Below the pieces are notes generated by a model. That model saw only the letters and a list, made by a program, of their open reading frames with translations. It was not told the origin of the DNA and did no database searches. DNA of 64,000 nucleotides from a virus: IMG/VR virus record IMGVR_UViG_3300048592_001371, positions 1 through 64,000 of that record. One strand, written 5' to 3'. Numbering within the stretch: position 1 is the first letter of the stretch; the number at the start of each line of letters is the position of its first letter. Positions 45,773 to 63,261 of the stretch are shown piece after piece. The position numbers were made by a program, and so were the translations under genes.

Positions 45773-45803
45773 AACGGGGTGGCTTTCCACCCCGTTACCT
45801 TTA
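45773..45803 (+). terminator. Rho-independent terminator closing tail module
   Basis: AACGGGGTGG and CCACCCCGTT form a perfect 10-bp stem with a CTTT loop, followed by ACCTTTATT. It separates the tail module from the enzyme block. The next gene starts 12 bases later, so the block may depend on read-through or an unseen promoter. The stem sequence matches that of the hairpin at 6614. Confidence 0.75.
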
Positions 45804-46543: not shown

Positions 46544-47450
46544 GATCACGAATTTCGACTTGTTCGTAGGGTACAATCAAAGGCCATGGACATTCTCTAC
46601 GAATCCTTCCGACAAGTTCATGGTCTGGTCGAAGCGCCTGAAGCGCAAAATCTTCCCCTTCCGAGACGAGCTAGCACAAGCGGCGCAAGAATTATCAGTA
46701 CGCGGACTAGGTCCCTTCTACGTTCTGTATTCTGGTGGCTACGACAGCGAAGCAATCCTAGCAGCCTTTCTGGAGAACGGTCTGCCTGTTGTCCCGATCA
46801 TGGTGCGATATACCGATGAGAGCAACTCGGAAGACTTTGAACACGGGCTAAACTACTTAGCCCACTACGAGATGTCTCCGATCATCTACGAGATAGATCT
46901 GGCGAAGTGGATACACTCACAGGAGTGTCGTGACCTAGCAGAGAAGGTGCAAGCCGGTGATCTAGCAACGACAGCCATCTACAAGGCTGTGCTAGATATG
47001 CCGCAACTGCGCGAAGGCTTCTTTATCATGGGTTTGCACGAACCAGCCATCTACGCCCAGGACACCGAAGAGAAGCGTGAATGGGTACTGCTGGAAGAGG
47101 AGAAGTGGTACGCACATCACAAATTCCTACTGGCCCACAATCTACGTGGGATAGGTGCCTTCATACACTACAGCCCGGAGCTTTACACGTCCTTCGTGGT
47201 CAATCCAGCGTACATGCGTGTGTATGCGAACATGTTCAATCCTGAGCTGTGGCAAGCCGAGTGGGTGAAGCATCAGTTGTTCTCAAAGTATCTGCGCTTG
47301 GAGCGTAGAGAAAAACGGACAGGGTTCGAAGCGATTCAAGGTGAGGTCAATCGTATCAACCACGAATGGATACGAGAGCACGAAGGATTGTGGGATAGGC
47401 ACTACGTGACGCCTGTCCTAGATTGGGTACGTGGAGTAGGCCACCTATGA
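46536..47450 (+). CDS. PP-loop ATP-dependent enzyme
   Basis: A 304-residue protein with the PP-loop SGGYDS (residues 66-71) in FYVLYSGGYDSEAILAAFLE, the ATP-pyrophosphatase signature shared by asparagine synthetase, GMP synthetase and QueC-type enzymes. It would adenylate a carboxylate, thiol or similar group and release pyrophosphate. It is more distant from the three asparagine-synthetase-like proteins downstream and lacks their GDGxD element. It overlaps both neighbours. The acceptor is unknown; amide formation is a reasonable guess from context. Confidence 0.65.
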   Translation: MSEITNFDLFVGYNQRPWTFSTNPSDKFMVWSKRLKRKIFPFRDELAQAAQELSVRGLGPFYVLYSGGYDSEAILAAFLENGLPVVPIMVRYTDESNSEDFEHGLNYLAHYEMSPIIYEIDLAKWIHSQECRDLAEKVQAGDLATTAIYKAVLDMPQLREGFFIMGLHEPAIYAQDTEEKREWVLLEEEKWYAHHKFLLAHNLRGIGAFIHYSPELYTSFVVNPAYMRVYANMFNPELWQAEWVKHQLFSKYLRLERREKRTGFEAIQGEVNRINHEWIREHEGLWDRHYVTPVLDWVRGVGHL

Positions 47451-47905
47451 ATATAGTCAAGATCACAAACGACAAAGACGTGATGCGTCTCATGCTGGAG
47501 GAAAAGCGACCTCTGCAACAGGTCTTTGGCGTAGAGAACGTCATGCGCGGCTACACTGACGAGCAAAGCGGCTACTTCGGCGTCTACAAAGAGCTCTGTT
47601 TGTCTAGTGCCTATCAGTGCTCGGCTTGGTCTGATGTCCTGTTCGTACATGACATCGTTGGAGCAATTCAGGATGTCTGGTTGCACATACGAAACGGACG
47701 CAACTTTGTAGCATACGTCCGAAAGGGTAACATGCCGAGCCTGGGGGAGCTAGAAGGTCTGTTTGGCCTTCCCGTCTTCGCCAACAGCACACGGAATTTG
47801 GACTACGCAATGCTCCATTCTCTGTTCAACTACGTTCTTCCTCAAGAGAACGGTTACGTTATAGCGAGCCAAAAATGGGACATTCCATTGATGATAAGCC
47901 TGTAA
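47447..47905 (+). CDS. hypothetical protein of enzyme block
   Basis: A 152-residue protein of unknown function (MNIVKITNDKDVMRLMLEEK). It contains two cysteines in LCLSSAYQCSAW and an aromatic, hydrophobic core. The ATG overlaps the previous stop, and the end overlaps the sulfotransferase by 31 bases, so it belongs to the same coupled operon. No motif recognised. Confidence 0.5.
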   Translation: MNIVKITNDKDVMRLMLEEKRPLQQVFGVENVMRGYTDEQSGYFGVYKELCLSSAYQCSAWSDVLFVHDIVGAIQDVWLHIRNGRNFVAYVRKGNMPSLGELEGLFGLPVFANSTRNLDYAMLHSLFNYVLPQENGYVIASQKWDIPLMISL

Positions 47906-48762
47906 TCATTTGCTCCTTCCCGAGGAGCGGCAGTACGTTGCTTCAACGATTGCTGAACACACATGACGATCTATGCATCTGGGGAGAGAACCTCGGTCTT
48001 CTGACAGCTATGCTAGACCAGATTGCAGCCTTGCGCTGGACGGGAACAGATCCCAAGACAGCGGCCCAAGTCAAACAATCTTCCGAATTTTCTCCGGTCA
48101 GCACTCCCTACACGGCTTTCGATCTGCAAGAAGCGTTCAAGAAACTCCTCGTCGGCTTTTACGCTAGAGGGTTGAAAGAGAATATACGCTGGGGCTACAA
48201 AGACCACAATCACTACTACCCATTCGATCTAATTGAGATCAACAAGATATTCCCCGGGGCTCAGTTCATCGTATTGAGAAGGAACGGTCCAGACTGTTGC
48301 ACGAAAGCTATATTGGCGCCTTGGGTGCGCGAGAAGATAGAAGGCACTCCGAGCCTGTTAGGAGTAGACGTGCGTGCCAGTATGGACAGCTTGGTCTCTT
48401 CCGTCATTCTCACCTATCTGCAATTCAACACCTTCGCTTCGAACGTCTACAAAAACAGAACAGACGTGAGGGTGATTGAGTACGAGGATCTGGTGCGAAG
48501 TCCTGAGCATGTGATCGAGCACTTGTCGCAATTCTTGAATCTACGGCAGGACGGCTGGAATATTGAAGCCTTCGAGACACAGCTATCAACGAAGCTGGGG
48601 AAAACGCCCAGTCAGGGAAGCTATGGCTTCATGACAGAAGAGTTGGTACGGGAGTACGTGGACAAGTGGTGGAGGAAACTGGTAGTAGAGGGCAACGTCG
48701 AACGGCGAGAGCGTGATCTTCGTTGGAACGTTGTGACGGGTAGACACTGGCGCTGGTACTGA
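47875..48762 (+). CDS. PAPS-dependent sulfotransferase, enzyme block
   Basis: A 295-residue sulfotransferase. The 5'-phosphosulfate loop is SFPRSGSTLL (residues 14-23), GYKDHN lies at 107-112, and the 3'-phosphate motif is LRRNGPDCCTKAI (134-146). It would move a sulfo group from PAPS to an unknown acceptor in the pathway. The start is the only ATG before the loop and lies inside the previous gene. It is not closely similar to the sulfotransferase at 36863 beyond the motifs. An APS kinase ends the same operon. Confidence 0.85.
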   Translation: MGHSIDDKPVIICSFPRSGSTLLQRLLNTHDDLCIWGENLGLLTAMLDQIAALRWTGTDPKTAAQVKQSSEFSPVSTPYTAFDLQEAFKKLLVGFYARGLKENIRWGYKDHNHYYPFDLIEINKIFPGAQFIVLRRNGPDCCTKAILAPWVREKIEGTPSLLGVDVRASMDSLVSSVILTYLQFNTFASNVYKNRTDVRVIEYEDLVRSPEHVIEHLSQFLNLRQDGWNIEAFETQLSTKLGKTPSQGSYGFMTEELVREYVDKWWRKLVVEGNVERRERDLRWNVVTGRHWRWY

Positions 48763-48769
48763 GGAAATC

Positions 48770-49189
48770 ATGACTTCTGTTCGTGTATCGCAAGAGAAAC
48801 TGAAAACAGGCTCGCTGGACGTGGCGGAACTGGTTCTGGAAACCCAGCTCGATCTAGCGCGTAGAAACATTACCGCTGCGTACTTCCCAATACGAGAGGA
48901 ACTGGACGAGACATTAGTTCTGCGCGCCATGAACGGAGAACTGGCGGCTGTTCTCGTTTGGCGAAAGTATGTCGACTCTATCTGGATCATCATAGCAGCC
49001 GTGAAGGATGGCTTCCGAGGGCAAGGACTGCATCAACTGCTGCATCAAGAACTGGACAAGGTAGCGCGCCAACTTGGCATCGGCGTCATTGAGACGTATG
49101 TCGGGACAGAGAACAAATCAGTGCTGCGGTCCTACGAAAAGATGGGTATTACGCCACAGATGTACTACATCAAGAAAAAGGTGCCGTAA
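48770..49189 (+). CDS. GNAT acetyltransferase, copy 1
   Basis: A 139-residue GNAT-fold acyltransferase. The acetyl-CoA motif A is R83-G-Q-G-L-H in FRGQGLHQLLHQ, and YEKMG lies at 122-126 where the catalytic tyrosine is usually found. It would acetylate an amine using acetyl-CoA. It directly precedes and is coupled to a radical SAM gene (TAATG). Two further copies lie at 50652 and 52542. Confidence 0.75.
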   Translation: MTSVRVSQEKLKTGSLDVAELVLETQLDLARRNITAAYFPIREELDETLVLRAMNGELAAVLVWRKYVDSIWIIIAAVKDGFRGQGLHQLLHQELDKVARQLGIGVIETYVGTENKSVLRSYEKMGITPQMYYIKKKVP

Positions 49190-50655
49190 TGCTGTTGGAG
49201 AACGTCGATCTGTTGCTCATTTCGGATTGCTACGAAACTCCGTATGTAAGGTATAGCGGCCCCTACGTCCTCGCTTCCTACCTTCGCAGGCATGGTCTGA
49301 GAGTGCAGGTAGTAGACTACTTTTCCCGCTTCACAGATACCGAGATAGAAACCATAGTAGACGTGTGCGTTGGCTCCAATACCAAGGCGGTAGGAGTATC
49401 GGATACATTCTCCGGCAAGCCCTTGCATGAGCTCGCAGATGGATCGACCTATGGTTGGCCCTTCTTCGAGAGGCATGACAGGATACGTCGCTTCATCGGC
49501 AATGTCAAGCGCAAGAATCCGAAAACGCGACTGTTGATGGGTGGGCAAAAGACCACTCAAGGACTAAGCGCCGGGTACATAGACACATACTTCCATGGGT
49601 TCGCCGAACAGTCACTTCTCGCTTATCTACAAAGCGAAGGACATGAAGTTCCACGTGTCGTCAAAGAAGCCACCATCCCGAATTGGAAAGACATCCCAAC
49701 CATTCATCACGAGTCCGACAACATCCTCGAAGGAGAAACGCTGCCGTTAGAAGTGTCTCGTGGCTGTATCTTCAACTGCAAATTCTGCTCATACCCCCGT
49801 CGAAATGCCAAGGACTTGAACTACATAAAGTCGGAGGAAGCTATCTACCAGCAGCTTCTGCACAACTATGAGCAATATGGCACTACCTGTTACACGCTAC
49901 TGGACGATACGCACAACGATTCGAAAGCCAAACTCGAAACCATTCGGAACGTTCTAGATCGTCTGCCGTTCAGCATCGAATTTGCTACCTATCTGCGGCT
50001 CGATCTGATAGCCAAAGATATGTCCACCGCGGAGTTGCTCATACGAAATGGACTACGTGGAGCCTTCTTCGGAATAGAGACACTACACAAGGAAGCGGGA
50101 CGACTCGTTGGAAAAGGCCTAGAGCCTGACGAAACGAGAAAGGCGCTGCGAAAATTACGGGAGTTGTGGGGAAACGAAGTAGGAACGCAAGGTGCTTTCA
50201 TCCTAGGCTTGCCGAAACAGCCAGAAGCTGATGTGATACTGATGTGCGAAGAGGTCTGCGACCCTTCCTTCCCGTTACATGGCCCAATATTCTTTCCGTT
50301 GATCATGTATCCAGGCAGGACAAATCCCTCACCGTTCGAGAAAAATCCGTCCCTATACGGGATACGCTTGGAGGAAGGGGATCGGCACGGGTATTGGCAT
50401 AATAGTGAAACCGGCATGGACTTCGAACGCGCGATAGAGATTCAAAACGAATACACGACGCGCATCTACCGCAATCACAGACGCCAATGTGGAGGTTTCT
50501 TGCCCATCATGGCAGTTAATCTAGGTATCAAAGCGCGGGACTTAATCGGCATGCCCGCGAGGGTCGCTCATAAGAAGTACAATATGCAGTCGAGGGAGTC
50601 TCCCTATTTGGCAAAGTACAAAGCAAAGGTTCTGGGAACAACGGAGGGGCAATGA
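49189..50655 (+). CDS. B12-type radical SAM enzyme, copy 1
   Basis: A 488-residue enzyme. The N-terminal 150 residues look like a cobalamin-binding Rossmann domain (YSGPYVLASYLRRHGLRVQV, LLMGGQ), without the classic DxHxxG. The radical SAM cluster ligands are C193, C197 and C200 in SRGCIFNCKFCSYPRR. It would make a 5'-deoxyadenosyl radical for methylation, C-C bond formation or another alkylation. It starts MLLENVDLLL, as do copies 2 and 3, on a TAATG overlap with the GNAT gene. Substrate unknown. Confidence 0.85.
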   Translation: MLLENVDLLLISDCYETPYVRYSGPYVLASYLRRHGLRVQVVDYFSRFTDTEIETIVDVCVGSNTKAVGVSDTFSGKPLHELADGSTYGWPFFERHDRIRRFIGNVKRKNPKTRLLMGGQKTTQGLSAGYIDTYFHGFAEQSLLAYLQSEGHEVPRVVKEATIPNWKDIPTIHHESDNILEGETLPLEVSRGCIFNCKFCSYPRRNAKDLNYIKSEEAIYQQLLHNYEQYGTTCYTLLDDTHNDSKAKLETIRNVLDRLPFSIEFATYLRLDLIAKDMSTAELLIRNGLRGAFFGIETLHKEAGRLVGKGLEPDETRKALRKLRELWGNEVGTQGAFILGLPKQPEADVILMCEEVCDPSFPLHGPIFFPLIMYPGRTNPSPFEKNPSLYGIRLEEGDRHGYWHNSETGMDFERAIEIQNEYTTRIYRNHRRQCGGFLPIMAVNLGIKARDLIGMPARVAHKKYNMQSRESPYLAKYKAKVLGTTEGQ

Positions 50656-51074
50656 AGGTAACATTCAGGACGGAGAAGGTATTTGAGTTGAACAACGAGG
50701 TCATAAAATTCATACTGTTGTCCTATGTCGAACTCCTGGATAGAAGTTTGTCCGGTATGGGAATTCCCTTCGCGAATACCGACGACGTTCTCATGGCTAC
50801 GAACGAAAAAGGGGACTTGACCGGCTGTATTGTGCTGAGGAAAACGAACGACGCCATCCCTACCTACTGGGTGATCCTAACGGCTGTGAAGCAAGAGTTC
50901 CGTGGTAAGGGACTGCATAAGCAAATGCACAGTCGCCTAGATGCGATTGCTCGGGCCAACGGCATCCAGTACATCTCATCCTACGTCTCTCCGAACAACA
51001 AGGAAAGCTTGAGGGCGTATGAGAAATTCGGCGCAGAACAGTCTATGATAAAGATCAACCGGAAGGTCTCGTAA
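50652..51074 (+). CDS. GNAT acetyltransferase, copy 2
   Basis: A 140-residue GNAT protein, paralogous to copy 1. RGKGLH at 84-89 is the acetyl-CoA loop and YEKFG at 123-127 the C-terminal motif. It lies between two radical SAM genes and overlaps both (ATGA before, TAATG after). Duplicated GNAT-radical SAM pairs suggest one chemical step repeated on different positions or substrates. Confidence 0.75.
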   Translation: MKVTFRTEKVFELNNEVIKFILLSYVELLDRSLSGMGIPFANTDDVLMATNEKGDLTGCIVLRKTNDAIPTYWVILTAVKQEFRGKGLHKQMHSRLDAIARANGIQYISSYVSPNNKESLRAYEKFGAEQSMIKINRKVS

Positions 51075-52540
51075 TGCTGTTAGAGAACGTCGACTTGCTA
51101 ATCGTTAGCGATTTCGCCAATCCCATCTACAAGTCACGCTACAGCGGTCCATACGTTCTCGCCTCCTACCTTCGCAGATTGGGTCTGCGCGTTCAGATAG
51201 TTGATTACATCTCCGAATTCTCGGACGAACAACTGCGGGATATCGTAGACGTTTGTGTCGGGAAGAATACCAAGGCCGTTGGCATTTCTGACACCTTCAG
51301 TTACTTCCAGACACACATGAACGCCAATCGAGTGAATGAGTTCACGATAGCGGGTTGGCCTTTCCTACGAGAGGAGCGGATCAAGGCCTTTGTCGCTAGA
51401 ATCAAGGGTATCAACCCCGATACGCAGATCATCATGGGTGGTGCTAAGTCGACGCGCTTCGATCAACCCGTTCCCTACGTAGACGTTCTATTCAGAGGAT
51501 TTTCCGAAGCGTCCCTAGCAAAGTATCTGATGTCCCGTCACCTGGGTTTGAACAGTTCGTCCTTCGTCGAGGAGCTTCCGATAGATGATTGGATAGACAC
51601 GGTCACTCATATGAGTCCGGAAGACAACCCCTTGGTCAACGAAACCGTTCCTTTGGAAATCTCCCGCGGATGCATATTCAACTGTAAATACTGTTCATAC
51701 CCACGTAAGGGAGCGAAGGACTTCGATTACATCAAGACGGAGGAATCGCTCTACCAAACGCTCTTTACGAACTACTCGGAGTTCGGCATTCGTCGCTACA
51801 TGCTGACGGATGATACGCACAACGATTCGATGTTCAAGCTTGAGCGCTTGCATCGCGTCACTCAACGGCTTCCCTTCAAGATCGAGTATAGCTCGTACAT
51901 CCGAGTCGACTTGCTTCACCGCTATCCTGAGATGATAGACCTGTTGAAAGAGATAGGTCTGAAAGGAGCGATGATGGGGATAGAAACCTTGAATTGGGAA
52001 ACGGGCAAGATAATCGGCAAAGGATTGCAGCCTAAGAAAACGATTGAAACGCTCCAGCTCTTACGTGAGAAGTGGGGCGACACGATCGGTACCCAAGGTA
52101 TGTTCATTCTTGGTTTGCCGCGCCAATCATACAAGGATGCTATCGCGATGTGTGAACGCATAAGCGCAGAAGACTTCCCATTGCATGAGGCACTATTCTT
52201 CCCTCTGTATTTCTTGACCCAGGCTCGCGTCAAGTCGGCTTTCGATATGGACTACGAAAGTTTCGGGTACAAGGTAGAGGGAAAAACGTGGGTCAACGAT
52301 CAAGGGATGACGTCCGAACAGGCAACAAAGCTGGCTAGGTATTACACGAACAAGAACAGAAAGAGCGGGCGTGAGAAGTTCGGTGGCAATCTGCCATTAC
52401 AGCTAGCCAATAGCGGATATGTCGTCGACGACTTGATAGGGAAACCGTTGGGCTCGTTTTTCGAGTCTGAGGAAGCAAAGGGACGCACTACTGAATATGT
52501 GCGTCGATACAAACGAAAACTTTTTGACGTAGAGGAATGA
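51074..52540 (+). CDS. B12-type radical SAM enzyme, copy 2
   Basis: A 488-residue paralogue of copy 1 with the same N-terminal start (MLLENVDLLIVSD) and layout. Cluster ligands are C200, C204 and C207 in SRGCIFNCKYCSYPRK. The N-terminal domain has YSGPYVLASYLRRLGLRVQI. Conserved DDTHNDS, GIETLNWETGKIIGKGLQ and IGTQGMFILGLP segments are shared by all three copies. Coupled to the GNAT gene before it. Confidence 0.85.
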   Translation: MLLENVDLLIVSDFANPIYKSRYSGPYVLASYLRRLGLRVQIVDYISEFSDEQLRDIVDVCVGKNTKAVGISDTFSYFQTHMNANRVNEFTIAGWPFLREERIKAFVARIKGINPDTQIIMGGAKSTRFDQPVPYVDVLFRGFSEASLAKYLMSRHLGLNSSSFVEELPIDDWIDTVTHMSPEDNPLVNETVPLEISRGCIFNCKYCSYPRKGAKDFDYIKTEESLYQTLFTNYSEFGIRRYMLTDDTHNDSMFKLERLHRVTQRLPFKIEYSSYIRVDLLHRYPEMIDLLKEIGLKGAMMGIETLNWETGKIIGKGLQPKKTIETLQLLREKWGDTIGTQGMFILGLPRQSYKDAIAMCERISAEDFPLHEALFFPLYFLTQARVKSAFDMDYESFGYKVEGKTWVNDQGMTSEQATKLARYYTNKNRKSGREKFGGNLPLQLANSGYVVDDLIGKPLGSFFESEEAKGRTTEYVRRYKRKLFDVEE

Positions 52541-52541
52541 C

Positions 52542-52976
52542 ATGGAACTAAAAATCCATAGTATTTCCATCATGCGCGTGTCAAACGATGTGCTGTCATT
52601 CATCCTTCGTACAATGGCCGATTTGGTAGAGGACGGACACTCGGGAAGAGGAATCGCTGTTACCAATGCGGACCACGTAGTCGTAGCAAGGCGTTCTGAC
52701 AATGGCGAACTCGTAGGAGTGCTTGTCTACGTAATAAATAGGCCGAAGGATTTGCTGTGGGTAAATCACGCCGCCGTCAAAGAGCAATATCGCGGACAGG
52801 GGATACATCGAAAGATGCATGCGATGCTCAAAGACATCGCCCGAAAGGAGAATGTCTACGAAGTTGGTTCCTACGTCTCTATTGAAAACAGGGCGAGTGT
52901 AGGGGCGCACAGCAAACGACCCGGCGTCAAGTTCCCAATGATGCGAGTATCCGTGCCCGTTACAGAGGACAAGTAA
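52542..52976 (+). CDS. GNAT acetyltransferase, copy 3 (divergent C-terminus)
   Basis: A 144-residue GNAT protein. The acetyl-CoA loop RGQGIH is intact at 84-89, but the YEKxG motif of copies 1 and 2 is replaced by AHSKRPGVK, so the usual catalytic tyrosine is missing. It may use another base, bind without catalysis, or be degenerating. AGAGGA precedes the ATG. It is coupled to the helical-domain protein that follows. Confidence 0.65.
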   Translation: MELKIHSISIMRVSNDVLSFILRTMADLVEDGHSGRGIAVTNADHVVVARRSDNGELVGVLVYVINRPKDLLWVNHAAVKEQYRGQGIHRKMHAMLKDIARKENVYEVGSYVSIENRASVGAHSKRPGVKFPMMRVSVPVTEDK

Positions 52977-53602
52977 TGAAACAATTCCGACGATTTTGGT
53001 TCTGCGTTGATCTACGCGACAATACTGTGCTGTATCTGGAGCACGACTTCGGTCACAATCAGCCTCCTGGAATAGACCCGGAGGCAAACGTCTTCCCTCT
53101 TGCGGGTATGTTCCCGACCGATTTTACACCGGCGACGTGTGCGAAATTCGAGTACGTCGATGGGGCACAAGTAGCATTGAAGAAGGAGAAGCTAACCCAG
53201 CGCCAAAGTCTGTTGCGCCAAAAATACGTAGCTTTGGCAAAGATCATGAAAGTGGTCTACTGGGGCAGAACGAAGGTCAACAAAGGTTGGCTGCAGCAGG
53301 ACGCCGTCTACAAAATGAAGTTGGACGCGGCTGTTGCCTATCTCAACAAAGAAGAGAATCCTCCGGGCCTAGCAATGCTGCAACATGAAGCCGATTTGCG
53401 GAAAACGACCGTCTATGCGATGGCGAAAGCAATAACCATCGCGGCGCAGGATAACGAGCGCATCCTGATCGACACGGAGAACTTTCGTCAGGAGTGGACT
53501 CAAAAAATCCGAGCTTGCTCAAGTCTGCTAGAGCTGCAGCAAGTGATGGATACTCTCCGCAGCGAAAGCTACATTCCGGTCACTATGGGGTTCCTGCAAT
53601 GA
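52976..53602 (+). CDS. helical-domain family protein, copy 2
   Basis: A 208-residue protein of unknown function in the family of the tail-module protein at 45108. It starts with strands (FWFCVDLRDNTVLYLEHDF) and has a C-terminal helical domain (YKMKLDAAVAYLNKEENPPG, TVYAMAKAITIAAQDNERIL, CSSLLELQQVMDTLRSE). It overlaps the asparagine-synthetase-like gene by ATGA. The same order is found twice more downstream. It may be a carrier, substrate or partner of that enzyme, or a tail protein modified by it; this is inference. Confidence 0.5.
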   Translation: MKQFRRFWFCVDLRDNTVLYLEHDFGHNQPPGIDPEANVFPLAGMFPTDFTPATCAKFEYVDGAQVALKKEKLTQRQSLLRQKYVALAKIMKVVYWGRTKVNKGWLQQDAVYKMKLDAAVAYLNKEENPPGLAMLQHEADLRKTTVYAMAKAITIAAQDNERILIDTENFRQEWTQKIRACSSLLELQQVMDTLRSESYIPVTMGFLQ

Positions 53603-54621
53603 AATTCCTCGTCTTCCAACCAATGCCGAATACGGCGCACAAAGGACTGGCCCAGACACAGGTGGTGATAGGGAACTGCAATTCTCCGATCTCTCGTCTG
53701 AACCGATTCAAGACAGGGGACGTGCTCGATTACAAGTGCGTCTACCCAATCTTGGATTTGCGGACGGATATCAAAATGGCGGATCCGTTCGCCGAGTTCG
53801 ACGCGGCAATGTTGGCCGCGGCCGGTCGTATTCGAGACTTCTCCGAGAAGAACAATGTTCCTGTTCACGTGATGTGGAGCGGCGGTCTAGACAGCACCTG
53901 TGCCTTGGTAGCCCTTGTTCGGGCTGGCGTCCGACCGGTTGTGTTCTTGCATGGATATTCGATCCACGAGAACCCAACAATGTTCTACCAATTCGTCAAG
54001 GACTACGAAGTAGCACACGTCCGAGACACGGACAGGCTGTTCTCCGGGGCCGTTGTTATGGGTGAAGCCGGGGATCAACTCTTTGGTTCGGACATGATGA
54101 TCAAAATGCACAGGCGAGACCTGTTCGCTCCGAATTGGAAGGACTCGATCATCAACAATCTGAAAGAACGCGGACGCAGTCTTCTGGATACATTCTTGCC
54201 TATAGTGGATGAATGTCCACGACAGATCGAGTGTGCGGCCGATTTCTTTTGGTGGTGGAACTTCTCGCAGAAGTCTCAAGCGGTAGCTCTGCGCTACTTG
54301 ATAAACGCGAAGGATCCGGCGGACGCGGCCACGCGCTGGAGCCCTATCTTCATGGACAAGCAAATCCAGGAATGGTCGTTGAACGCACCGAGAGAGGCAA
54401 AGATCGATCCAAGCGTTGGCGTACCTAGCTACAAGCTGGCCATTCGTCGGTTCATTTCCAAGTACGCCAGCCCAGATTATGTACTGCCTTCGAAGATAGG
54501 TAGTTTGTATCGGACAATGATCATCTCGCAGCACAAACACCCCGCACTCGATGAGAACTATAACAAGGTGTCTGCGCTCGATGTCGACAAGCAACTACAC
54601 GTGAATTGGAGCTTCGCCTAA
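53599..54621 (+). CDS. asparagine-synthetase-like amide ligase, copy 1
   Basis: A 340-residue protein with the synthetase half only of class-B asparagine synthetases. The PP-loop is SGGLDST (residues 94-100), GEAGDQLFG lies at 155-163, and a C-terminal SYKLAIRRFISKY segment leads to PSKIGS with the likely catalytic lysine. There is no N-terminal Cys glutaminase domain, so the amine must come from ammonia or another compound, as in beta-lactam synthetase-type and lasso-peptide cyclases. It is preceded by a helical-domain protein and followed by a radical SAM gene (TAATG overlap). Confidence 0.75.
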   Translation: MKFLVFQPMPNTAHKGLAQTQVVIGNCNSPISRLNRFKTGDVLDYKCVYPILDLRTDIKMADPFAEFDAAMLAAAGRIRDFSEKNNVPVHVMWSGGLDSTCALVALVRAGVRPVVFLHGYSIHENPTMFYQFVKDYEVAHVRDTDRLFSGAVVMGEAGDQLFGSDMMIKMHRRDLFAPNWKDSIINNLKERGRSLLDTFLPIVDECPRQIECAADFFWWWNFSQKSQAVALRYLINAKDPADAATRWSPIFMDKQIQEWSLNAPREAKIDPSVGVPSYKLAIRRFISKYASPDYVLPSKIGSLYRTMIISQHKHPALDENYNKVSALDVDKQLHVNWSFA

Positions 54622-56078
54622 TGCTGTTGGAGAACGTTGATCTACTGATCCTTAATGAGTTCTCTGATCCGTACTTCAAAGTGAGGTACTCGGGACCTTA
54701 CGTGCTTGCTTCGTACCTGCGTAATCGAGGATACCGTGTTCAAATACTCGACTATGTTTCGCATTTCACGGATGCTCAGTTGGTAAAGGCGCTACGAGTA
54801 TGCGTCGGCCCGAAAACGTTGGCTGTTGGCCTAGCCGGAACCTTCACGGTTTCCTTGAAGGCGACGTATTCGGCCAAGGATACGCCGGAGGCACGTACTG
54901 GATGGCCACTATGTCAGCCACGGCGCATCGACTTGTTCCTCGACACTGTACGGTCTATCAACCCAGAGACAAAGATCATCATGGGTGGGCATAGACACGG
55001 GTATGACTACCCGAGAGACGTGGACACCCTGTTCTTGGGGTTTTCCGAGGTATCTCTGTTCAATTACCTCGAGACTCTAAGAATAAACAACAGCTGGGTT
55101 CCCAAAGTCGTCCAGGAAGAAAAGCAAGAGGGTTGGAACAGAGACGTTTTTCTGTACTCGGAGGAGGACAACATCCTTCCCGGCGAGACGCTGCCTCTTG
55201 AGATTTCTCGCGGTTGTATTTTCAACTGCAAGTATTGCACGTATCCAAGACGCGGGGCGAAGGATTTCACCTACGTCAAAGACGAGGATGTGATACGTAC
55301 TCAACTGTCACACAACTATGACAAGTTCGGGGTTCTGAATTACACGCTGACGGATGACACACACAACGACACTGAAGAAAAACTGAAACGTCTCATTCGT
55401 GTTCAGAAGGAGTTGGGCATTCAAATACGCTATTCGGCGTATGCTCGTCTGGACCTCATTCATACCTTCCCACACACCGCGGACCTTCTATTCCAGGCCG
55501 GTATGCGTGGTCCCATGTTTGGCATCGAGACGCTGAATTGGGAAGCCGGGAAGATGATTGGCAAGGGCTTGCACCCAGACAAAGTCCGTGCGACATTGCA
55601 CCGACTACGCGCAGAATGGGGAGACGAAGTAGGCACGGAGGGGATGTTCATTCTCGGCTTGCCTAAGCAAAGTCGGTTAGACATGGTACGAATGGCCAAG
55701 GAACTGATGGATCCTTCGTTCCCTTTGCATTACGTGATTTTCTACGCCCTGATCATACAACCGTTGAAGGAAGACTCGGCCTTCAATCGAGAACCCGAGA
55801 AGTTTGGGTACGATACTTCAGTCAAAGCGGCGGGGAACTGGGTACGTGATGATGGTTTTACTGCTGACGAAGCGCGGCAGATGCAAATACTCTATACCAA
55901 TCAGATGATCGAGACGCAGCGAAACAAGTTTGGTGGTGTTCTACCGTTCTTGGTATCGAACGGTGGACGCTCTCTGCAAAGCATGATTGGAAAGCCATTG
56001 GAGTTGTCGCAGCGTGATTACATTGACGCGACACGCTACATGGAACGTTATCTAGCCAAGGTGTTTTCGGAGGACTAA
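54621..56078 (+). CDS. B12-type radical SAM enzyme, copy 3
   Basis: A 485-residue paralogue of copies 1 and 2 with the same start (MLLENVDLLILNE). Cluster ligands are C199, C203 and C206 in SRGCIFNCKYCTYPRR. The N-terminal domain includes YSGPYVLASYLRNRGYRVQI and KIIMGGHRHG. The ATG at 54621, on the TAATG overlap with the ligase gene, is chosen because it matches the starts of the other two copies; a start five codons upstream is also open. Confidence 0.85.
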   Translation: MLLENVDLLILNEFSDPYFKVRYSGPYVLASYLRNRGYRVQILDYVSHFTDAQLVKALRVCVGPKTLAVGLAGTFTVSLKATYSAKDTPEARTGWPLCQPRRIDLFLDTVRSINPETKIIMGGHRHGYDYPRDVDTLFLGFSEVSLFNYLETLRINNSWVPKVVQEEKQEGWNRDVFLYSEEDNILPGETLPLEISRGCIFNCKYCTYPRRGAKDFTYVKDEDVIRTQLSHNYDKFGVLNYTLTDDTHNDTEEKLKRLIRVQKELGIQIRYSAYARLDLIHTFPHTADLLFQAGMRGPMFGIETLNWEAGKMIGKGLHPDKVRATLHRLRAEWGDEVGTEGMFILGLPKQSRLDMVRMAKELMDPSFPLHYVIFYALIIQPLKEDSAFNREPEKFGYDTSVKAAGNWVRDDGFTADEARQMQILYTNQMIETQRNKFGGVLPFLVSNGGRSLQSMIGKPLELSQRDYIDATRYMERYLAKVFSED

Positions 56079-56942
56079 ATGTATTGGAACAGGTTGTTTG
56101 ACGACGTGGTTGACTTCACCCAGCATCGGTATTACTCACAGTTCGAGAATCTGAAATCCACGAACCCGCAGAATTTTCGCTGCGACCCACTAGCCCCGAG
56201 TCCTGTTCTTTTCTTGGGTTCCTGTGACATGGGTGGTCCTGTCAATAACGCAGACGAAGTGTGGCCGCGACGCGTGTATAGAAAACTATGTGAGTCGCAG
56301 GGGCGGTTCCCGTACATGGCTTTGTCCAAGATCAGCTCTGGACTAGAAGCCACGTTGCGTCGACTGTACATCTACTGCGAACTCGTAGGTCCGCCGAAAG
56401 TGCTCTATATGGTCATGCCTCGGCCAGTAAGCATTGAAATTCCTGTGAAGCGGTCGATGACAGATCCTCTCGTTGGAGTAACGGACATAGAGCGATACTT
56501 GACGTTCCTCGGCAAACTCCCAACAATCACAACCGAAGAGGTGTTCCTCTTCAAGAAGATTTCTGAGGTACTGATCGGTTTGTCTGAGAATGAGTCGTAC
56601 CAACTGTACCAGTTTGAAAAAGGGACCGCCTTCTTGCAGACGCTCTGTCGTTTGCACAATATCGAGTTACGCTGGACGCCCAATCTTAGTGCCACTGCCA
56701 TAGAGTACTACGCCAAATACTTTTCTCTGTTCCTGAGGGAGAATGATTTCATGCGGCAGACGTGTCTGGGTGTTGGCAAGGCTCTGGATTTCTCAGGCGA
56801 CGGATCTGTGGGCGACGAGACACAGGGCGTTATCGCTAATCTGATGCTGGATGGCAAACCCGGTGAATTTTCTCTAGACGCAACAAAGAAGCAGCTGGTC
56901 GAGAACTTGGAATTCAAACGCACAACCCTGGAGGAAAAATGA
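56079..56942 (+). CDS. SGNH-hydrolase-like protein
   Basis: A 287-residue protein. SPVLFLGSCDMGGPVNNADE followed by VWPRRVYRKL and VLYMVMPRPVSIEIP follows the layout of phage SGNH/GDSL-like proteins, where a GxS block, a WP segment and a late P-x-R segment recur. The catalytic histidine block near the C-terminus is not clear (DGSVGDETQGVIANLM has no His). It may be an esterase, an acyltransferase or an inactive binding protein. CGGAGGA precedes the ATG, and the stop overlaps the next gene. Confidence 0.35.
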   Translation: MYWNRLFDDVVDFTQHRYYSQFENLKSTNPQNFRCDPLAPSPVLFLGSCDMGGPVNNADEVWPRRVYRKLCESQGRFPYMALSKISSGLEATLRRLYIYCELVGPPKVLYMVMPRPVSIEIPVKRSMTDPLVGVTDIERYLTFLGKLPTITTEEVFLFKKISEVLIGLSENESYQLYQFEKGTAFLQTLCRLHNIELRWTPNLSATAIEYYAKYFSLFLRENDFMRQTCLGVGKALDFSGDGSVGDETQGVIANLMLDGKPGEFSLDATKKQLVENLEFKRTTLEEK

Positions 56943-57547
56943 TACCACTACACGTAGCAAATCTCAATACACGGGACTATGTCCATGGCACGTCTATCAT
57001 GACAGGGCTGACGCGCTTCCTACTAGAAAATCACGATACCGTAACGGAATTCACCTTCCGTCTGTACAAGAAGCTCCTGACTTTGCCGCTACTGAGCATT
57101 ACCGAGAAACAGGTCGACAATCCAAAGGACTACGTCGCTACGGGTTCCTTCATGGGAAACGGCTCGCAATGGTTCTTCCAAATTCAGCCTTCAGTCCTTC
57201 CCGTGGAGCACGTTCTGCACATTGACGAGTCCGCTCTAGTAAATAGGATAGAACTGAGAGGAGACAGGTACGTCATAGACGTTGAAGAAAAAGACGACGT
57301 CTTTGTCACCTGGAATGCCATATCAAAGACGCACAACCTGAGAGTGTTCAGCGAGCTCGGCGTGACAAAGCCGGGTGGCCAGACATGGCTAACAGGACAA
57401 ACATTCAAAGACTTGTCCTTCTTGAGAACTCGGCCTGCGACATTGGGAAATTCGGTCGCGTTTCAGAGACTGTCCGAGCGCTGTATCAAACATGACATGT
57501 ACTACGACGAGGCAATAGTCGGAGACAAGACTATAGTCTATGCCTAA
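56939..57547 (+). CDS. hypothetical protein of enzyme block
   Basis: A 202-residue protein of unknown function starting MIPLHVANLNTRDYVHGTSI. Two Trp-containing beta stretches (GSQWFFQIQPSVLPVEHVL, KPGGQTWLTGQTFKDLSF) suggest a mainly beta, possibly double-psi or cupin-like fold, though no metal motif is visible. It is coupled to the SGNH-like gene by ATGA. No family recognised. Confidence 0.5.
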   Translation: MIPLHVANLNTRDYVHGTSIMTGLTRFLLENHDTVTEFTFRLYKKLLTLPLLSITEKQVDNPKDYVATGSFMGNGSQWFFQIQPSVLPVEHVLHIDESALVNRIELRGDRYVIDVEEKDDVFVTWNAISKTHNLRVFSELGVTKPGGQTWLTGQTFKDLSFLRTRPATLGNSVAFQRLSERCIKHDMYYDEAIVGDKTIVYA

Positions 57548-57556
57548 GGGGACATA

Positions 57557-58165
57557 ATGCTGCAACTTGCTATCGATGTGACGGATGGTACGGTCATATA
57601 TGCCTTACCGGATGCGTACCGAATCTGCATGCCCAAATTGCGGACATGGATAGAAAACATCATACTCGATGTTCGGCTTCCCAAGGATTTCCCGATACGC
57701 GCATTAGGTTCACAGAATTTTGTCCGTATAGGGCTGGAAATTCAACGACGGGTGGATAGCGTCCCGGAAGCAGCTATGCTTCTGAATCTGAAATACCACT
57801 CCGTGGACAAAGTGAACATGCTGGTTAATGGACATCGCTTTGCAACGATGAACAAGTTGCTGTTGCAACCACGAGTGTACGAGCTAAAAATAGCGGAGGC
57901 TGAAGCCGTATTGAAGTCGGGCTCCAGTTTGGAGCCCGTAGAAAACGCGCCTATGCTGATAGAGGAAGCAAAAGCGCGGGGCCTATCTGTACGAGATGTT
58001 GCCAAGACTGTTCTACTGGCCAGAGACGATCAGGACGACATGCTGAAAAGGACGGAAGGTATGCGAATATCCGCCACTATTCGCATCTCCGAGGCAAAAA
58101 CACCGCAAGAGGTTTTCGAGATAATGTCGGGCTTCGAGGAAAGTTTCCACAACCGAGGCCTATGA
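57557..58165 (+). CDS. helical-domain family protein, copy 3
   Basis: A 202-residue protein clearly homologous to copy 4 at 59166: both have LAxDxxDxTxIYAxPxxYR, an LPxxFPIRxLxSQxFV stretch, ALLNxKYxxxD, and NGxRFAxxNKLLxQxRxYExK. The C-terminal helical domain runs to TPQEVFEIM. It overlaps the following asparagine-synthetase-like gene by ATGA. GGGGA precedes the ATG. Unknown role; the fixed pairing with the ligase is the main clue. Confidence 0.55.
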   Translation: MLQLAIDVTDGTVIYALPDAYRICMPKLRTWIENIILDVRLPKDFPIRALGSQNFVRIGLEIQRRVDSVPEAAMLLNLKYHSVDKVNMLVNGHRFATMNKLLLQPRVYELKIAEAEAVLKSGSSLEPVENAPMLIEEAKARGLSVRDVAKTVLLARDDQDDMLKRTEGMRISATIRISEAKTPQEVFEIMSGFEESFHNRGL

Positions 58166-59169
58166 TGAGACCGTTGATCTACATAGGTACTCCTAGATAT
58201 CGAAACAGGGTTTTGCGTACTCTGTACCAAGTTCTGCATATCGACGTACCGATGTCTCGTTGTGCTTATCAGGAGTGCAACGTCGTCCCAGTCAGTCATG
58301 CTTTCCCTTTGATGTCCGAACATCGAATAGCGCCGTGTGCCCAGCCGCTTTATGAATTAGAACGCTTGGTCCTAGACAGGGCGACACAGCTTGTGTCGGA
58401 ATCGTCTCAGACGGGAAGGCCCATTTGCGTTAAATACTCCGGTGGTCTGGATAGTATGTTGGCACTCCTGGCCTTCGAACGAATTTCCGCAGAATACAAA
58501 GTCTTCCTGACGCCCAACTCCATCAAAGAAAATCCCACCGTCTTCAAAAAGTTCATTGCCCATCGTGAGTATTTTCACGCGAACGACCCTTCTGTCTTTG
58601 ACGGGCTCGTGATAACAGGAGACGGAGGGGATGCTCTATTTCTAGACGCTATCGTTAAAGGGCCGCAGATGAGGCATGGCGATGCGGTATTGGACTGGGA
58701 CTGGAAAGACGGTTTCGTGAAGGGTATGTGGGGCACGCCAGAAGAGAACAAGTTTGTCTTGGGACTACTAGAGCCGGCGATGCACGATTGTCCCTGGCCA
58801 GTGAAGACGGTTCGGGACTTCTTCGCTTGGACTGGCCTAGCGATCTTCTACCAACCGGAAGTATTGCGTTGGCTTCCTACACTACAGGATCCAAAGAAGA
58901 ACTGGCCTTGGGTCCGGCCGTTCTTTGCAACGAAGGAATTCGTGGAGTGGTCTCTTGGGCAAGAGCCGAAAATCAAGTATCCAAGTACGTCTGACTACAA
59001 ACCAACATTCCGAAAACTGTGTGAGAAATTTTCGGGACTGGATCTATCGGACATGAGGAAAGACTTCTCGCTAGGTAAGACGAGGGGTGCTGCTCCTATG
59101 GTGGTAGGCGTGATGGAAGACTTGACACACGTCACCACCGAAGGAATCGAAAAACTGGTAAAGGAATGA
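58162..59169 (+). CDS. asparagine-synthetase-like amide ligase, copy 2
   Basis: A 335-residue synthetase-only asparagine synthetase homologue. It has SGGLDS at 93-98, GDGGDALF at 153-160 and a C-terminal YKPTFRKLCEKFSGLDLSD-MRKDF segment that holds the catalytic lysine position. The N-terminus carries PMSRCAYQECNVVPV in place of the glutaminase domain, nearly the same as copy 3. It lies between two helical-domain genes and overlaps both. A second ATG follows directly and could also serve as start. Confidence 0.78.
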   Translation: MMRPLIYIGTPRYRNRVLRTLYQVLHIDVPMSRCAYQECNVVPVSHAFPLMSEHRIAPCAQPLYELERLVLDRATQLVSESSQTGRPICVKYSGGLDSMLALLAFERISAEYKVFLTPNSIKENPTVFKKFIAHREYFHANDPSVFDGLVITGDGGDALFLDAIVKGPQMRHGDAVLDWDWKDGFVKGMWGTPEENKFVLGLLEPAMHDCPWPVKTVRDFFAWTGLAIFYQPEVLRWLPTLQDPKKNWPWVRPFFATKEFVEWSLGQEPKIKYPSTSDYKPTFRKLCEKFSGLDLSDMRKDFSLGKTRGAAPMVVGVMEDLTHVTTEGIEKLVKE

Positions 59170-59801
59170 ATATGGGCGCTCCGAATCTCTATCAACTCGC
59201 GGTTGATACACACGACAATACCATCATCTATGCGATGCCGGAAAGTTATCGGTTGTCCCTGCCAGATTTGAGAACCTGGGTGGAGAACAAACTGTTCTAC
59301 GGAAGCTTGCCTGAAGGCTTTCCAATACGCAATCTGGATAGTCAAAAGTTTGTGCTATCTGAGGGAAAGGTCCTAGCACGGAAGGACGAGGTTCGGGAAG
59401 GTGTCGCTTTGCTGAACGTGAAGTATTGGGCGATCGATCAGGTTCTAATGATCATCAACGGACAACGCTTCGCGGTAACAAACAAGCTGTTGATGCAGGA
59501 TAGGATATACGAGGCAAAGGTCGAGGAAGCGCGTCTGATTCTGGCAAGACAAGACGAGGAGCTCAGGAAGTCACACTTTGAGACATCTTGTCCTATGCTG
59601 TATGCTGAGTCCGAGGACAAAGGACTGAGTCTAAACGTCGTAGCAAAAACAGTGATGGTAGCATACGAAGAACAAATGTCTCGCTTGAAGAAAACGGAGA
59701 TCATGCGAATGGCGATAACGAACAAAATCGCCAATGCCGAGACAGAGGAACAAGTTCGGGCTCTGTTGAAGGACGTCAAACTCTATTTCTACACGAGATG
59801 A
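59166..59801 (+). CDS. helical-domain family protein, copy 4
   Basis: A 211-residue paralogue of copy 3, with LYQLAVDTHDNTIIYAMPES, LPEGFPIRNLDSQKFVL and GVALLNVKYWAIDQVLMIIN. The C-terminal helices (YEAKVEEARLILARQDEELR, LNVVAKTVMVAYEEQMSRLK, AETEEQVRALLKDVKL) match the phage tail-associated type. Its start overlaps the stop of ligase copy 2, and its stop overlaps the start of copy 3; an ATG two codons later is an alternative start. Confidence 0.55.
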   Translation: MNMGAPNLYQLAVDTHDNTIIYAMPESYRLSLPDLRTWVENKLFYGSLPEGFPIRNLDSQKFVLSEGKVLARKDEVREGVALLNVKYWAIDQVLMIINGQRFAVTNKLLMQDRIYEAKVEEARLILARQDEELRKSHFETSCPMLYAESEDKGLSLNVVAKTVMVAYEEQMSRLKKTEIMRMAITNKIANAETEEQVRALLKDVKLYFYTR

Positions 59802-60805
59802 AACTCCTCAGCTACCACAACAATCCGATGTTCAAGAACAGGACGTTGAATACATTCTTCAACGTGCTCAACGTCGAGGCACCTATGTCTAGGTGTTCTT
59901 ACCAAGGATGCAATGTCCTACCTGTTCATCACTTGTTGCCTCCAATGTCGGAGTATGCAATACGTGTCGTTTCGCAGCCGGGTGCCGAGCTGGAGACGAT
60001 AGTCGAAGCAAGGGTGCGCGAGCTGGTCAACGAAGCACGCCAATTTGATCTGCCAATTCACCTCAAGTACTCTGGTGGTTTGGACAGCCTGCTCGTGCTG
60101 CTCATGTTACATAGGTGTGACGCGGATTTCGTTGTCTATCTGACTCCCGATTCCATCAAAGAGAACCAAGACGTATTCAAGAGATATGTCTCGAACCGAG
60201 ATTTCAAACACGTCAATTGTCCTAGTCTGTTCGACGGACTGATAATTTCAGGAGACGGGGCCGATGCTCTGTTCATAGACATGCTGGCAACAAGCGTAGT
60301 TTCCAAACACGGAGAGACGTCCTTGGATTGGAAATGGGAAGAAGGCTTTGTGAAAGGCATGTACGGAACGGAACAAGAGAACAACGAAGTGCTCGAATTG
60401 CTCTTTCCCGCTCTCGACGAATGTCCTTGGGAGGTAGAGACAGTTCGGGACTTCTTCGCTTGGACTGGCCTAGCGATCTTCTACCAGCACGAGACGTATC
60501 GTTGGCTTCCGACCATGCCTAATCCGGCAGAGAATTTCGCGCGCTTCCGACCGTTCTTTCCAACGAAGGATTTCGTCGAATGGTCTTTGGGACAGGAAAC
60601 GAAGGCCAAGTTTCCGAGCTTCACCGATTACAAACCGGCATTTAGGAAGCTGTGCGAAAAGCTAACGGGTCTTGACTTTTCCTACATGCGGAAAGACTTT
60701 TCGCTGTGGAAGACCGTAGCAGGTAATCGTCTGCATCCCGGTGTCAAAGATGATCTCTCGATTGCAACTATCGAAGAAATAGAACAGGCCGCTATCTATC
60801 CATGA
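59798..60805 (+). CDS. asparagine-synthetase-like amide ligase, copy 3
   Basis: A 335-residue paralogue of copy 2 with SGGLDS at 92-97, GDGADALF at 152-159, TVRDFFAWTGLAIFYQHETY and the C-terminal YKPAFRKLCEKLTG then MRKDFSLWK. The DNA of copies 2 and 3 is also similar around the TVRDFFAWTGLAIFYQ region, so the duplication is fairly recent. It overlaps the PLP decarboxylase by ATGA, which could supply the amine it uses. Confidence 0.78.
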   Translation: MKLLSYHNNPMFKNRTLNTFFNVLNVEAPMSRCSYQGCNVLPVHHLLPPMSEYAIRVVSQPGAELETIVEARVRELVNEARQFDLPIHLKYSGGLDSLLVLLMLHRCDADFVVYLTPDSIKENQDVFKRYVSNRDFKHVNCPSLFDGLIISGDGADALFIDMLATSVVSKHGETSLDWKWEEGFVKGMYGTEQENNEVLELLFPALDECPWEVETVRDFFAWTGLAIFYQHETYRWLPTMPNPAENFARFRPFFPTKDFVEWSLGQETKAKFPSFTDYKPAFRKLCEKLTGLDFSYMRKDFSLWKTVAGNRLHPGVKDDLSIATIEEIEQAAIYP

Positions 60806-61908
60806 CCGCAAATCTTCTCGATATGTACAAGCCCTTCGTCGAGGACTATCAAGGACCGTGTCTTGTCATCGACCGGGCCTCGATTTTCGAGCGCATAAAA
60901 CGCTTCCTTCGCGCGGTGCCGAACGTCCTCCCGTATTATGCAATGAAGGCGAACCCGCATCCCGGTGTTCTACAGACGGTTTCGGACGCGGGTATAAACT
61001 TTGACGTTGCCTCGGCAGACGAGATTCTCTTGCTGGAGCGTACTGGTCTGAACGTGCGTCATGTGCTGTTCAGCAATCCTGTCAAGAAACCAAGCGACAT
61101 CGCTTACGCAGCTTGGAATGGCATTCAGAACTATGCAATAGATAGCCAAGAGGAAATGTTCAAGATACTGTCTATCGTGCCGCACGCCAAGATGTACGTT
61201 CGTTTGTCTTTGCCACCCAGCACCGCGGATTCCCCACTCAATGACAAATTCGGTATTGACTTGTATGAGCTAGAAGGCCTGCTCCGGATAGCTAAAACGG
61301 TCAAGGCGGACATCTGTGGAGTAACATTCCACGTTGGCTCTCAATGTCGCTATCTCGACAGTTGGGGAGACGCTATAGGAATTGCTCTCAAAGCCGGCGA
61401 GATGCTTCTGCGCGAAGGCTTTCGGTTCGAGTTGCTCAACCTGGGTGGCGGCTTTCCCGTTTCCTACACGCGTCCAATACCTGAGATCGAAGACATTGGT
61501 CTGGTGCTGGATAGGCTGTTGCAAGATCTGCCGAAAGAAACACGAGTGGTTGCCGAGCCGGGACGACACCTGGTTGCGGAATCAGGCATGCTGATCTGCC
61601 AAGTAATAGCAACCTCTACGAGGAAGGGTACTCGTTGGGCCTACTTGGATGTCGGTACATACAACGGATTGGTAGAAACGATCCAAGGCGTTGAGTGTAA
61701 TTTCTGCTATACGCAAGAAGGCGACACGGATCTTTGGAATGTAGCGGGTCCAACGTGTGATTCAAACGACATCATGTCTAAGAGGGTCCGTCTACCCCGG
61801 AATCTGGCAACTGGAGATTTTCTCTATGTGCCGAATGCCGGGGCCTATTCGGTAGCCAGTGCAAGTACATTCTGCGGAGCACACATTCCGGAGGTTATCC
61901 TATTGTGA
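60802..61908 (+). CDS. PLP decarboxylase, ornithine/diaminopimelate type
   Basis: A 368-residue alanine-racemase-fold decarboxylase. PLP-binding Lys49 lies in YYAMKANPHP, with HVGSQC at 177-182, GGGFP at 215-219, EPGRHLVAES at 252-261, GPTCDSND at 316-323 and AGAYS at 346-350. The GPTCDS form fits ornithine or lysine decarboxylases better than diaminopimelate decarboxylase. The expected product is a di- or polyamine such as putrescine, but a peptide-linked or modified substrate cannot be excluded. It overlaps both the ligase before and the APS kinase after it. Confidence 0.85.
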   Translation: MTANLLDMYKPFVEDYQGPCLVIDRASIFERIKRFLRAVPNVLPYYAMKANPHPGVLQTVSDAGINFDVASADEILLLERTGLNVRHVLFSNPVKKPSDIAYAAWNGIQNYAIDSQEEMFKILSIVPHAKMYVRLSLPPSTADSPLNDKFGIDLYELEGLLRIAKTVKADICGVTFHVGSQCRYLDSWGDAIGIALKAGEMLLREGFRFELLNLGGGFPVSYTRPIPEIEDIGLVLDRLLQDLPKETRVVAEPGRHLVAESGMLICQVIATSTRKGTRWAYLDVGTYNGLVETIQGVECNFCYTQEGDTDLWNVAGPTCDSNDIMSKRVRLPRNLATGDFLYVPNAGAYSVASASTFCGAHIPEVILL

Positions 61909-62429
61909 ATCATGGACGCGTACTGTGGCTGACAGGTTTGAGTGGGTCGGGCAAGACCACTCTGGCTTGGGCACTTGACGAATTCCTACAACGCAAAGGA
62001 ATTGCTACTTCTGTCATCGACGGAGACGAGATACGCAAAACCCTGTGTAAGGATCTGGGGTATACGGCGGAGGACAGAACAGAGAACCAGCGGCGCATCG
62101 CAGGACTGGCGAGAAAACAAGCCGATCTCGACCTCACAGTAATCGTGGCCACCATCAGCCCGAGATTCAAACATCGGGTACTGGCCGAAGAGATAATCCA
62201 CCCGATCGACTTCTACGAAATCTACCTAGCCACTCCCCTCGAAGAATGCGAGAGGCGCGATCCGAAAGGGATGTACGCCAAAGCCAGAAGAGGGGAGATC
62301 AGTGCCTTCACCGGAGTTACCGATCCGTATGAGGAACCCGAACACCCCGATGTGAAAATCCCTCCGTCTTTCTCCCTCCGAGAAGCACTTCAAGCAATCG
62401 AACGGTCTGTCCGTTTCACGATTCTCTAG
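61905..62429 (+). CDS. cysC: adenylylsulfate (APS) kinase
   Basis: A 174-residue APS kinase. The Walker A motif is GLSGSGKTT (residues 11-19), followed by DGDEIRKTLCKDLGYTAED and RTENQRR, and the C-terminal GMYAKARRGEISAFTGVTDP loop with YEEPEHPDV. It phosphorylates APS to PAPS, the sulfate donor of the sulfotransferases at 36863 and 47875. APS itself would have to come from the host ATP sulfurylase, as no such gene is in the window. Start is GTG within the overlap with the decarboxylase, with GGAGG upstream. It ends the enzyme block. Confidence 0.92.
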   Translation: MNHGRVLWLTGLSGSGKTTLAWALDEFLQRKGIATSVIDGDEIRKTLCKDLGYTAEDRTENQRRIAGLARKQADLDLTVIVATISPRFKHRVLAEEIIHPIDFYEIYLATPLEECERRDPKGMYAKARRGEISAFTGVTDPYEEPEHPDVKIPPSFSLREALQAIERSVRFTIL

Positions 62430-62566: not shown

Positions 62567-62605
62567 CTGTAGAGCAAAATCCCATTTTTGGTAGAAAGGA
62601 CCGAT

Positions 62606-63001
62606 ATGCTCAAGGGTATACTCGAGACACTAACGCCGCCCCAAGTGAAGATAGCTATCTTCGGGTTGCTGTCTTTGGCAATGATTGGCCTGTTGCTTGG
62701 CGTGTACTTCTACGGACGACACGACGGAGCAGCGGCCAACGAAGTGAAGTGGCAGAAATGGCAAGCGGAATACTTCGAAGAACTGAAGGAGAAGATCGAA
62801 GGTGTGCAAAAGTACGCTTCCGAACAAACGGCCGAAGTCAAGAAGGGAACCGCGTCCACGAACGCACGAGTGAATACCGTGCTTGAAGAAATTCGCAAGA
62901 AGGGACCGACGGTAATCTACGACGCGGAGAAAAAGGCCTGCGAATTCAAACCCGGGTTTCAGTTGAACTGGTCAACCATCAATAAGGAGGCCAACAAATG
63001 A
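62606..63001 (+). CDS. inner-membrane spanin (Rz-like)
   Basis: A 131-residue protein with one N-terminal membrane helix (residues about 14-36, AIFGLLSLAMIGLLLGVYFY) and a periplasmic coiled coil (EYFEELKEKIEGVQKYASEQ, VNTVLEEIRKKG). CEFKPGFQLNWSTINKEANK resembles the ends of phage i-spanins. The ATG at 62606 has AAAGGA upstream and is preferred over an upstream TTG. It overlaps the lipoprotein gene by ATGA. Together they should fuse the two membranes at lysis. Confidence 0.7.
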   Translation: MLKGILETLTPPQVKIAIFGLLSLAMIGLLLGVYFYGRHDGAAANEVKWQKWQAEYFEELKEKIEGVQKYASEQTAEVKKGTASTNARVNTVLEEIRKKGPTVIYDAEKKACEFKPGFQLNWSTINKEANK

Positions 63002-63261
63002 GACTCCTCGGAATAGTCCTTGTGCTGTCTTTGACGGCCTGTGGTGGTAATCCTCTGAAAGATTTGGGTAGTGGCGCTATCGAGATAGACAGCTACCTAC
63101 TGGAAGAGTGTCCAGCCCTCGAAGAAACTGTTGTCATCAAGGACGAGACCCAGCTGTGGGAAGTGAAGGTACGAGAAACCAAACAGTATGCGGAGTGCAG
63201 AAAGAAGCAGAAAGGTTTGGCGAACGTAGTGAAGAAGGCTTTCAACCTCGAAAAGAAGTAA
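62998..63261 (+). CDS. outer-membrane lipoprotein spanin (Rz1-like)
   Basis: An 87-residue lipoprotein. The signal peptide MRLLGIVLVLSLTAC ends in a lipobox with Cys15 as the lipidated residue. The mature part is charged and helical (VREXKQYAECRKKQ type). Pairing with the overlapping i-spanin-like gene makes it the o-spanin candidate. Its presence argues for a Gram-negative host. AAGGAGG lies upstream of the ATG. Confidence 0.65.
   Translation: MRLLGIVLVLSLTACGGNPLKDLGSGAIEIDSYLLEECPALEETVVIKDETQLWEVKVRETKQYAECRKKQKGLANVVKKAFNLEKK

Follow-up and report, generated by a model that had tools for sequence, protein, structure and literature searches.

Phage-encoded sulfotransferases (STs) are statistically linked with APS-kinase-like genes, and the phage described here carries both. 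Within the window, the 64,000-nucleotide stretch of viral DNA that was analysed, the gene at 61905-62429 encodes what its sequence identifies as a bona fide full-length APS kinase with predicted activity, and two sulfotransferases are encoded at 36863-37639 and 47875-48762. As an enzyme this kinase is ordinary; its interest lies in the recurrent sulfotransferase link without cysH. We consider it probable, though well short of certain, that during infection the phage produces PAPS and adds sulfate to some acceptor, and we infer the PAPS flux, the substrate and the benefit from sequence.

The window belongs to a 123,553-bp record that covers part of a jumbo myovirus genome; the baseplate wedge protein of this phage lies nearest (~32-36% identity) to those of the jumbo myoviruses Erwinia phage Ep032, Xanthomonas phage PhiXhv-12, BcepSauron and Motura. 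Outside the window, at 75744-80830 of the record, QueD-, TGT/DpdA-like and QueE-like ORFs recognized by eye possibly specify 7-deazaguanine DNA modification. The kinase gene is the last of ~20 genes that fill 45815-62429, all on the + strand and tightly packed: adjacent genes are spaced by -31 to +9 bases, and many overlap by 4 bases. This cassette also contains the second sulfotransferase (ST 47875), four PP-loop proteins, three B12-type radical-SAM proteins, three GNATs, several ~200-aa proteins without assigned function and a PLP decarboxylase. The initial annotation had placed the kinase and ST 47875 in the same operon, and the gene spacing supports this predicted operon well. The features of the cassette are:

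45773-45796, + strand: strong terminator-like hairpin with a 10-bp stem, at the upstream edge of the cassette
45815-46543, + strand: first cassette gene, no function assigned (start codon inferred)
46536-47450, + strand: PP-loop (N-type ATP pyrophosphatase-like) protein
47875-48762, + strand: sulfotransferase 2 (PF13469), 295 aa
48770-49189, + strand: GNAT acetyltransferase 1
49189-50655, + strand: B12-type radical SAM protein 1, of a phage-enriched family
50652-51074, + strand: GNAT acetyltransferase 2
51074-52540, + strand: B12-type radical SAM protein 2
52542-52976, + strand: GNAT acetyltransferase 3
52976-53602, + strand: ~200-aa protein, paralogous with 45108, 57557 and 59166, possibly tail-associated
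53599-54621, + strand: PP-loop protein, asparagine-synthase-like by motif only (PF00733 sub-threshold)
54606-56078, + strand: B12-type radical SAM protein 3
56079-56942, + strand: hypothetical protein with an SGNH-like GSCD motif (by eye only)
58162-59169, + strand: PP-loop protein with SGGLDS and GDGGDALF motifs
59798-60805, + strand: PP-loop protein, 55% identical to 58162
60802-61908, + strand: PLP-dependent decarboxylase (Orn/DAP/Arg type), lysA-like but below the lysA cut-off
61905-62429, + strand: APS kinase (CysC-like), 174 aa, GTG start, matching the PF01583 and TIGR00455 profiles

The four ~200-aa paralogs (45108, 52976, 57557 and 59166) are scattered between enzyme genes, and two of them weakly match phrog_21671. 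A profile built from the three radical-SAM paralogs of the cassette recovered relatives in at least 80 viral contigs, ~15 of which have a PP-loop relative in the locus, and gave a strong match in one cellular contig only; single-sequence searches of viral contigs and known phages with the PP-loop and radical-SAM proteins returned no matches.

The kinase scores 185 bits against PF01583 (cut-off 21) and 186 bits against TIGR00455 apsK (cut-off 138.7), and its residues 4-152 cover profile positions 2-151/152, approximately the whole domain. Alignments reveal every expected motif, namely the P-loop GLSGSGKT, DGDEIR, DLGYTAEDRTENQRR, ISPRFKHR and the lid RDPKGMYAKARRGEISAFTG; the APS kinase signature of P-loop, DRxEN..RR APS-binding motif, ISP motif and RDPKGxYxKAR..FTG lid is kept. 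Among solved structures it lies nearest to CysC domains, first of all that of M. tuberculosis (4bzq, 6e-47). An APS kinase had been annotated at exactly these coordinates, and the score above the equivalog cut-off and the complete motif set bear this out. The start of the gene overlaps the 3′ end of the decarboxylase gene by 4 bases, and a 158-base gap separates it from the next gene, which is i-spanin-like. Directly 3′ of the kinase gene, at 62588-63261, lies a pair that by eye resembles an i-spanin and an o-spanin lipoprotein. No other gene of the 123,553-bp record matches PF01583. Neither cysH/PAPS reductase (PF01507) nor ATP sulfurylase (PF01747) is matched in this 123.5-kb fragment, the missing part of which could hold cysH or cysDN, and the HxGH pattern is absent from the called proteins of the record. 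The earlier proposal that ATP sulfurylase is left to the host agrees with this result, read on a fragment.

Both proteins previously called sulfotransferases match PF13469 above cut-off and carry PAPS-binding motifs, and they are the only two PF13469 matches in the record. ST 47875 scores 77 bits (cut-off 27) and displays a 5′-PSB motif FPRSGSTLL, a 3′-PB motif RRNGPDCCT (Arg with Thr, not Ser, at +8) and WGYKD. As a single query, its sequence retrieved no relative from the phage collection or from the viral contigs scanned; its top, weak match among solved structures is protein-tyrosine sulfotransferase 1.

The first sulfotransferase (ST 36863) scores 54-56 bits against PF13469 (cut-off 27). 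Its 5′-PSB motif reads GLPRSGSTLL, and the 3′-PB residues R109 and S117 are invariant in an alignment of seven phage STs. Relatives are encoded by at least 590 viral contigs, and the family includes the STs of cyanophages S-SKS1, S-SRM01 and S-SCSM1. ST 36863 also has a weak match to the nodulation ST NoeE. The best solved-structure match of the family profile is protein-tyrosine sulfotransferase 1 (2.8e-13), and polyketide STs match well too. The GEETR motif of TPST holds the catalytic Glu and Arg. The phage family does not conserve this motif, and the aligned positions of ST 36863 are not Glu/Arg; we therefore do not claim tyrosine as the acceptor. The ST 36863 gene lies inside a tail-fibre block, where it overlaps the gene at 36354-36866 by 4 bases, and its surroundings are:

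35239-36021, + strand: tail-fibre-like protein upstream of ST 36863 (phrog_2056, 7e-13; phrog_11439)
36863-37639, + strand: sulfotransferase 1 (PF13469; phrog_27463), 258 aa, of a widespread phage ST family
37661-38662, + strand: propeller-like repeat protein directly downstream of ST 36863 (phrog_19311)
43416-44300: tail-collar fibre protein (PF12571 match)

These neighbours confirm the annotated position of one ST among tail adhesins. At least five large adhesin-like paralogs with the common N-terminus MSSIxFTDTVTHxPAxWANDVDALxYD are encoded at 22106-28288 and 40831-42978. The ST 36863 gene and the kinase gene lie 24 kb apart in the window; among its relatives, some have the two genes overlapping.

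The link between ST and kinase was assessed across 50 large records that encode a member of the ST 36863 family and 50 radical-SAM phage records that served as controls. A PF01583 match above cut-off is found in 32/50 ST records and in 3/50 controls, which are unmatched for habitat or contig size; PF13469 is above cut-off in none of the 50 control records. Since the records are related, and one lineage that makes up 35/78 ST loci inflates raw pair counts, lineages were counted instead. An APS-kinase-like gene is present in 11/22 ST lineages versus 3/37 control lineages at 70% identity (Fisher p=4e-4), and in 4/6 versus 3/24 at 50% identity (p=0.016). The ST loci studied are the best-scoring 80 of at least 590; the kinase follows the ST by no more than 200 bases in 32 of 78 loci, nearly always with a 4-base overlap, and these represent only two lineages (70% identity), in which the kinase gene begins inside the last bases of the ST gene. 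In ~4 further lineages the kinase lies 2-4 kb from the ST on the same strand. The initial annotation had considered it rare for a phage ST to come with a PAPS supply of its own; the 32/50 records and 11/22 lineages (70% identity) contradict this part of it, while its overall reading of sulfation draws partial support from the intact kinase, the two STs with PAPS motifs, the ST-kinase link and a fragmentary record in which neither cysH nor ATP sulfurylase is matched.

Full-length APS kinases occur in 16 viral loci, and in three of these records an ST scores above a Pfam cut-off as well. One of the three, L100, has 2.7 kb between the kinase and the ST, and a tail-fibre-like ORF (by eye) comes immediately after that ST. 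A GC-rich viral contig (L096, 1571-2946) has an APS kinase ~270 bases from a Sulfotransfer_2-type-like ORF with an HIPKTGG motif (by eye), and a 15.6-kb viral contig (L105, 486-2303) encodes a CysN/CysC-like fusion. The record 'Pseudomonas phage Y4' (OQ572406.1, L009) was tried as a further example of a phage with APS kinase and ST, and is not counted because the neighbours look bacterial (glycosyltransferases, histidine kinase); the seemingly bacterial surface-polysaccharide genes there possibly reflect mis-assembly or contamination. The families around the STs of 25 lineages include Nol/NodU-like carbamoyltransferases (8), RCC1-like propellers (6), methyltransferases (6), GT9 (5) and several tail-fibre families, which points to decoration of adhesins or glycans.

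Most ST-linked kinases are shortened. They keep the P-loop and equivalents of DGD.IR, DLGFS..DR and ISP....R but have no RDPKGLYxKAR lid, which leaves some doubt whether they act as APS kinases; the first solved-structure matches of their profile are APS kinases. An HxGH nucleotidyltransferase is present in 23 loci, nearly always fused to the kinase (phrog_10255), and in L097, L100 and L103 the same family is a separate neighbour of a full-length APS kinase. In L126 and L103 the kinase carries a fused DUF2061. By sequence, the HxGH nucleotidyltransferase is closest to NMN adenylyltransferases (NMNAT-like); its identification as a known ATP sulfurylase was accordingly set aside and is kept only as speculation. 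A serious alternative is that the kinase-nucleotidyltransferase has a NadR-like role in NAD salvage, even though this nucleotidyltransferase family also adjoins the full-length APS kinases of L097, L100 and L103. In the speculative version, to which we attach little credence, many phages would encode a self-contained sulfation module of ST and APS-kinase-like enzyme, extended in some lineages by an HxGH mini ATP sulfurylase into a ~270-aa PAPS synthase; it would sulfate the phage's own adhesins or a glycan and alter adsorption or superinfection, and the window phage would be the full-length-kinase version with host-supplied APS.

In the reading that we favour, the phage APS kinase would raise or secure the PAPS pool of the infected cell from APS supplied by host ATP sulfurylase, and the two STs would transfer the PAPS sulfate in late infection. 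The acceptor of ST 36863 would most likely be a tail adhesin made by the neighbouring genes or a glycan tied to adsorption, whereas ST 47875 would most likely tailor the product of the radical-SAM/PP-loop/GNAT/decarboxylase cassette that contains both it and the kinase. The sulfate might instead be placed on host surface glycans (LPS or capsule) rather than on the virion, for example to block superinfection or change a receptor. The carbamoyltransferase, methyltransferase and GT9 neighbours of the STs are consistent with this, as are the weak NoeE match of ST 36863, the cyanophage S-SRM01 ST that adjoins a glycosyltransferase and a nucleotide-sugar epimerase, and a full APS kinase among GDP-sugar enzyme genes (L106, by eye). 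In the window, however, no glycosyltransferase was identified near either ST, and ST 36863 sits among tail genes; we regard host glycans as a possible but doubtful target. If the STs were TPST-like enzymes acting on tyrosines of tail proteins, this would account for the structure matches of both (weak for ST 47875) to protein-tyrosine sulfotransferase 1, yet the absence of the GEETR motif at the aligned positions and the good polyketide ST matches make this reading improbable.

Alternatively, the kinase could be an assimilatory auxiliary metabolic gene that speeds the host's conversion of sulfate to cysteine via host CysH, with the STs unrelated. This is the published interpretation of phage cysC, 62 copies of which were reported among 7,334 freshwater phage genomes (PMC10914622) and which is likewise read as assimilatory elsewhere (PMC8190135, PMC9529941). 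Against it stand the record, itself a fragment, without a cysH match, the absence of cysH above cut-off from all 34 related phage records with APS kinase/ST (0/34), the placement of the kinase in one gene cluster with an ST and the ST-kinase association across phages, and we consider it unlikely. Since the pairing with related STs recurs in many uncultured phages, phage cysC may often serve sulfation rather than cysteine synthesis. Ecological studies count phage cysC as an assimilatory sulfur gene, and this reading would be wrong for many phages if the enzyme mainly feeds STs. If sulfation is what these genes serve, it would be an unrecognised chemical modification at the phage-host interface, and sulfated virion proteins or envelope glycans are predicted in infected cells.

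Phage sulfotransferases have been reported with their function stated as unclear (PMC10580990), and neither the pairing of a phage ST with a phage APS kinase nor a sulfation reading of phage cysC was found in the literature searched, which was mostly open-access. The assimilatory cysC genes of other phages (PMC10914622, PMC9529941, PMC8190135) resemble the window kinase in being APS kinase genes on large phage genomes; the window kinase differs in its pairing with sulfotransferases and in that no cysH was found. Relative to bacterial and eukaryotic CysC (PF01583, TIGR00455), the window kinase has the same full domain with all motifs and a score above the equivalog cut-off, but is phage-borne, stand-alone and clustered with a sulfotransferase instead of cysDN/cysH. 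The phrog_10255 'kinase' shares the APS-kinase-like N-terminal domain and is often directly downstream of an ST; it has a shortened lid and often a fused NMNAT-like nucleotidyltransferase domain, which the window record lacks. The cyanophage STs of S-SKS1, S-SRM01 and S-SCSM1 (phrog_27463) share family and PAPS motifs with ST 36863 at ~29-31% identity. Rhizobial Nod-factor sulfation employs NodPQ with NodH/NoeE, along with the NodU carbamoyltransferase. While the phage is without Nod-factor backbone genes, both systems combine PAPS supply with a dedicated ST, and phage ST loci often have a carbamoyltransferase nearby.
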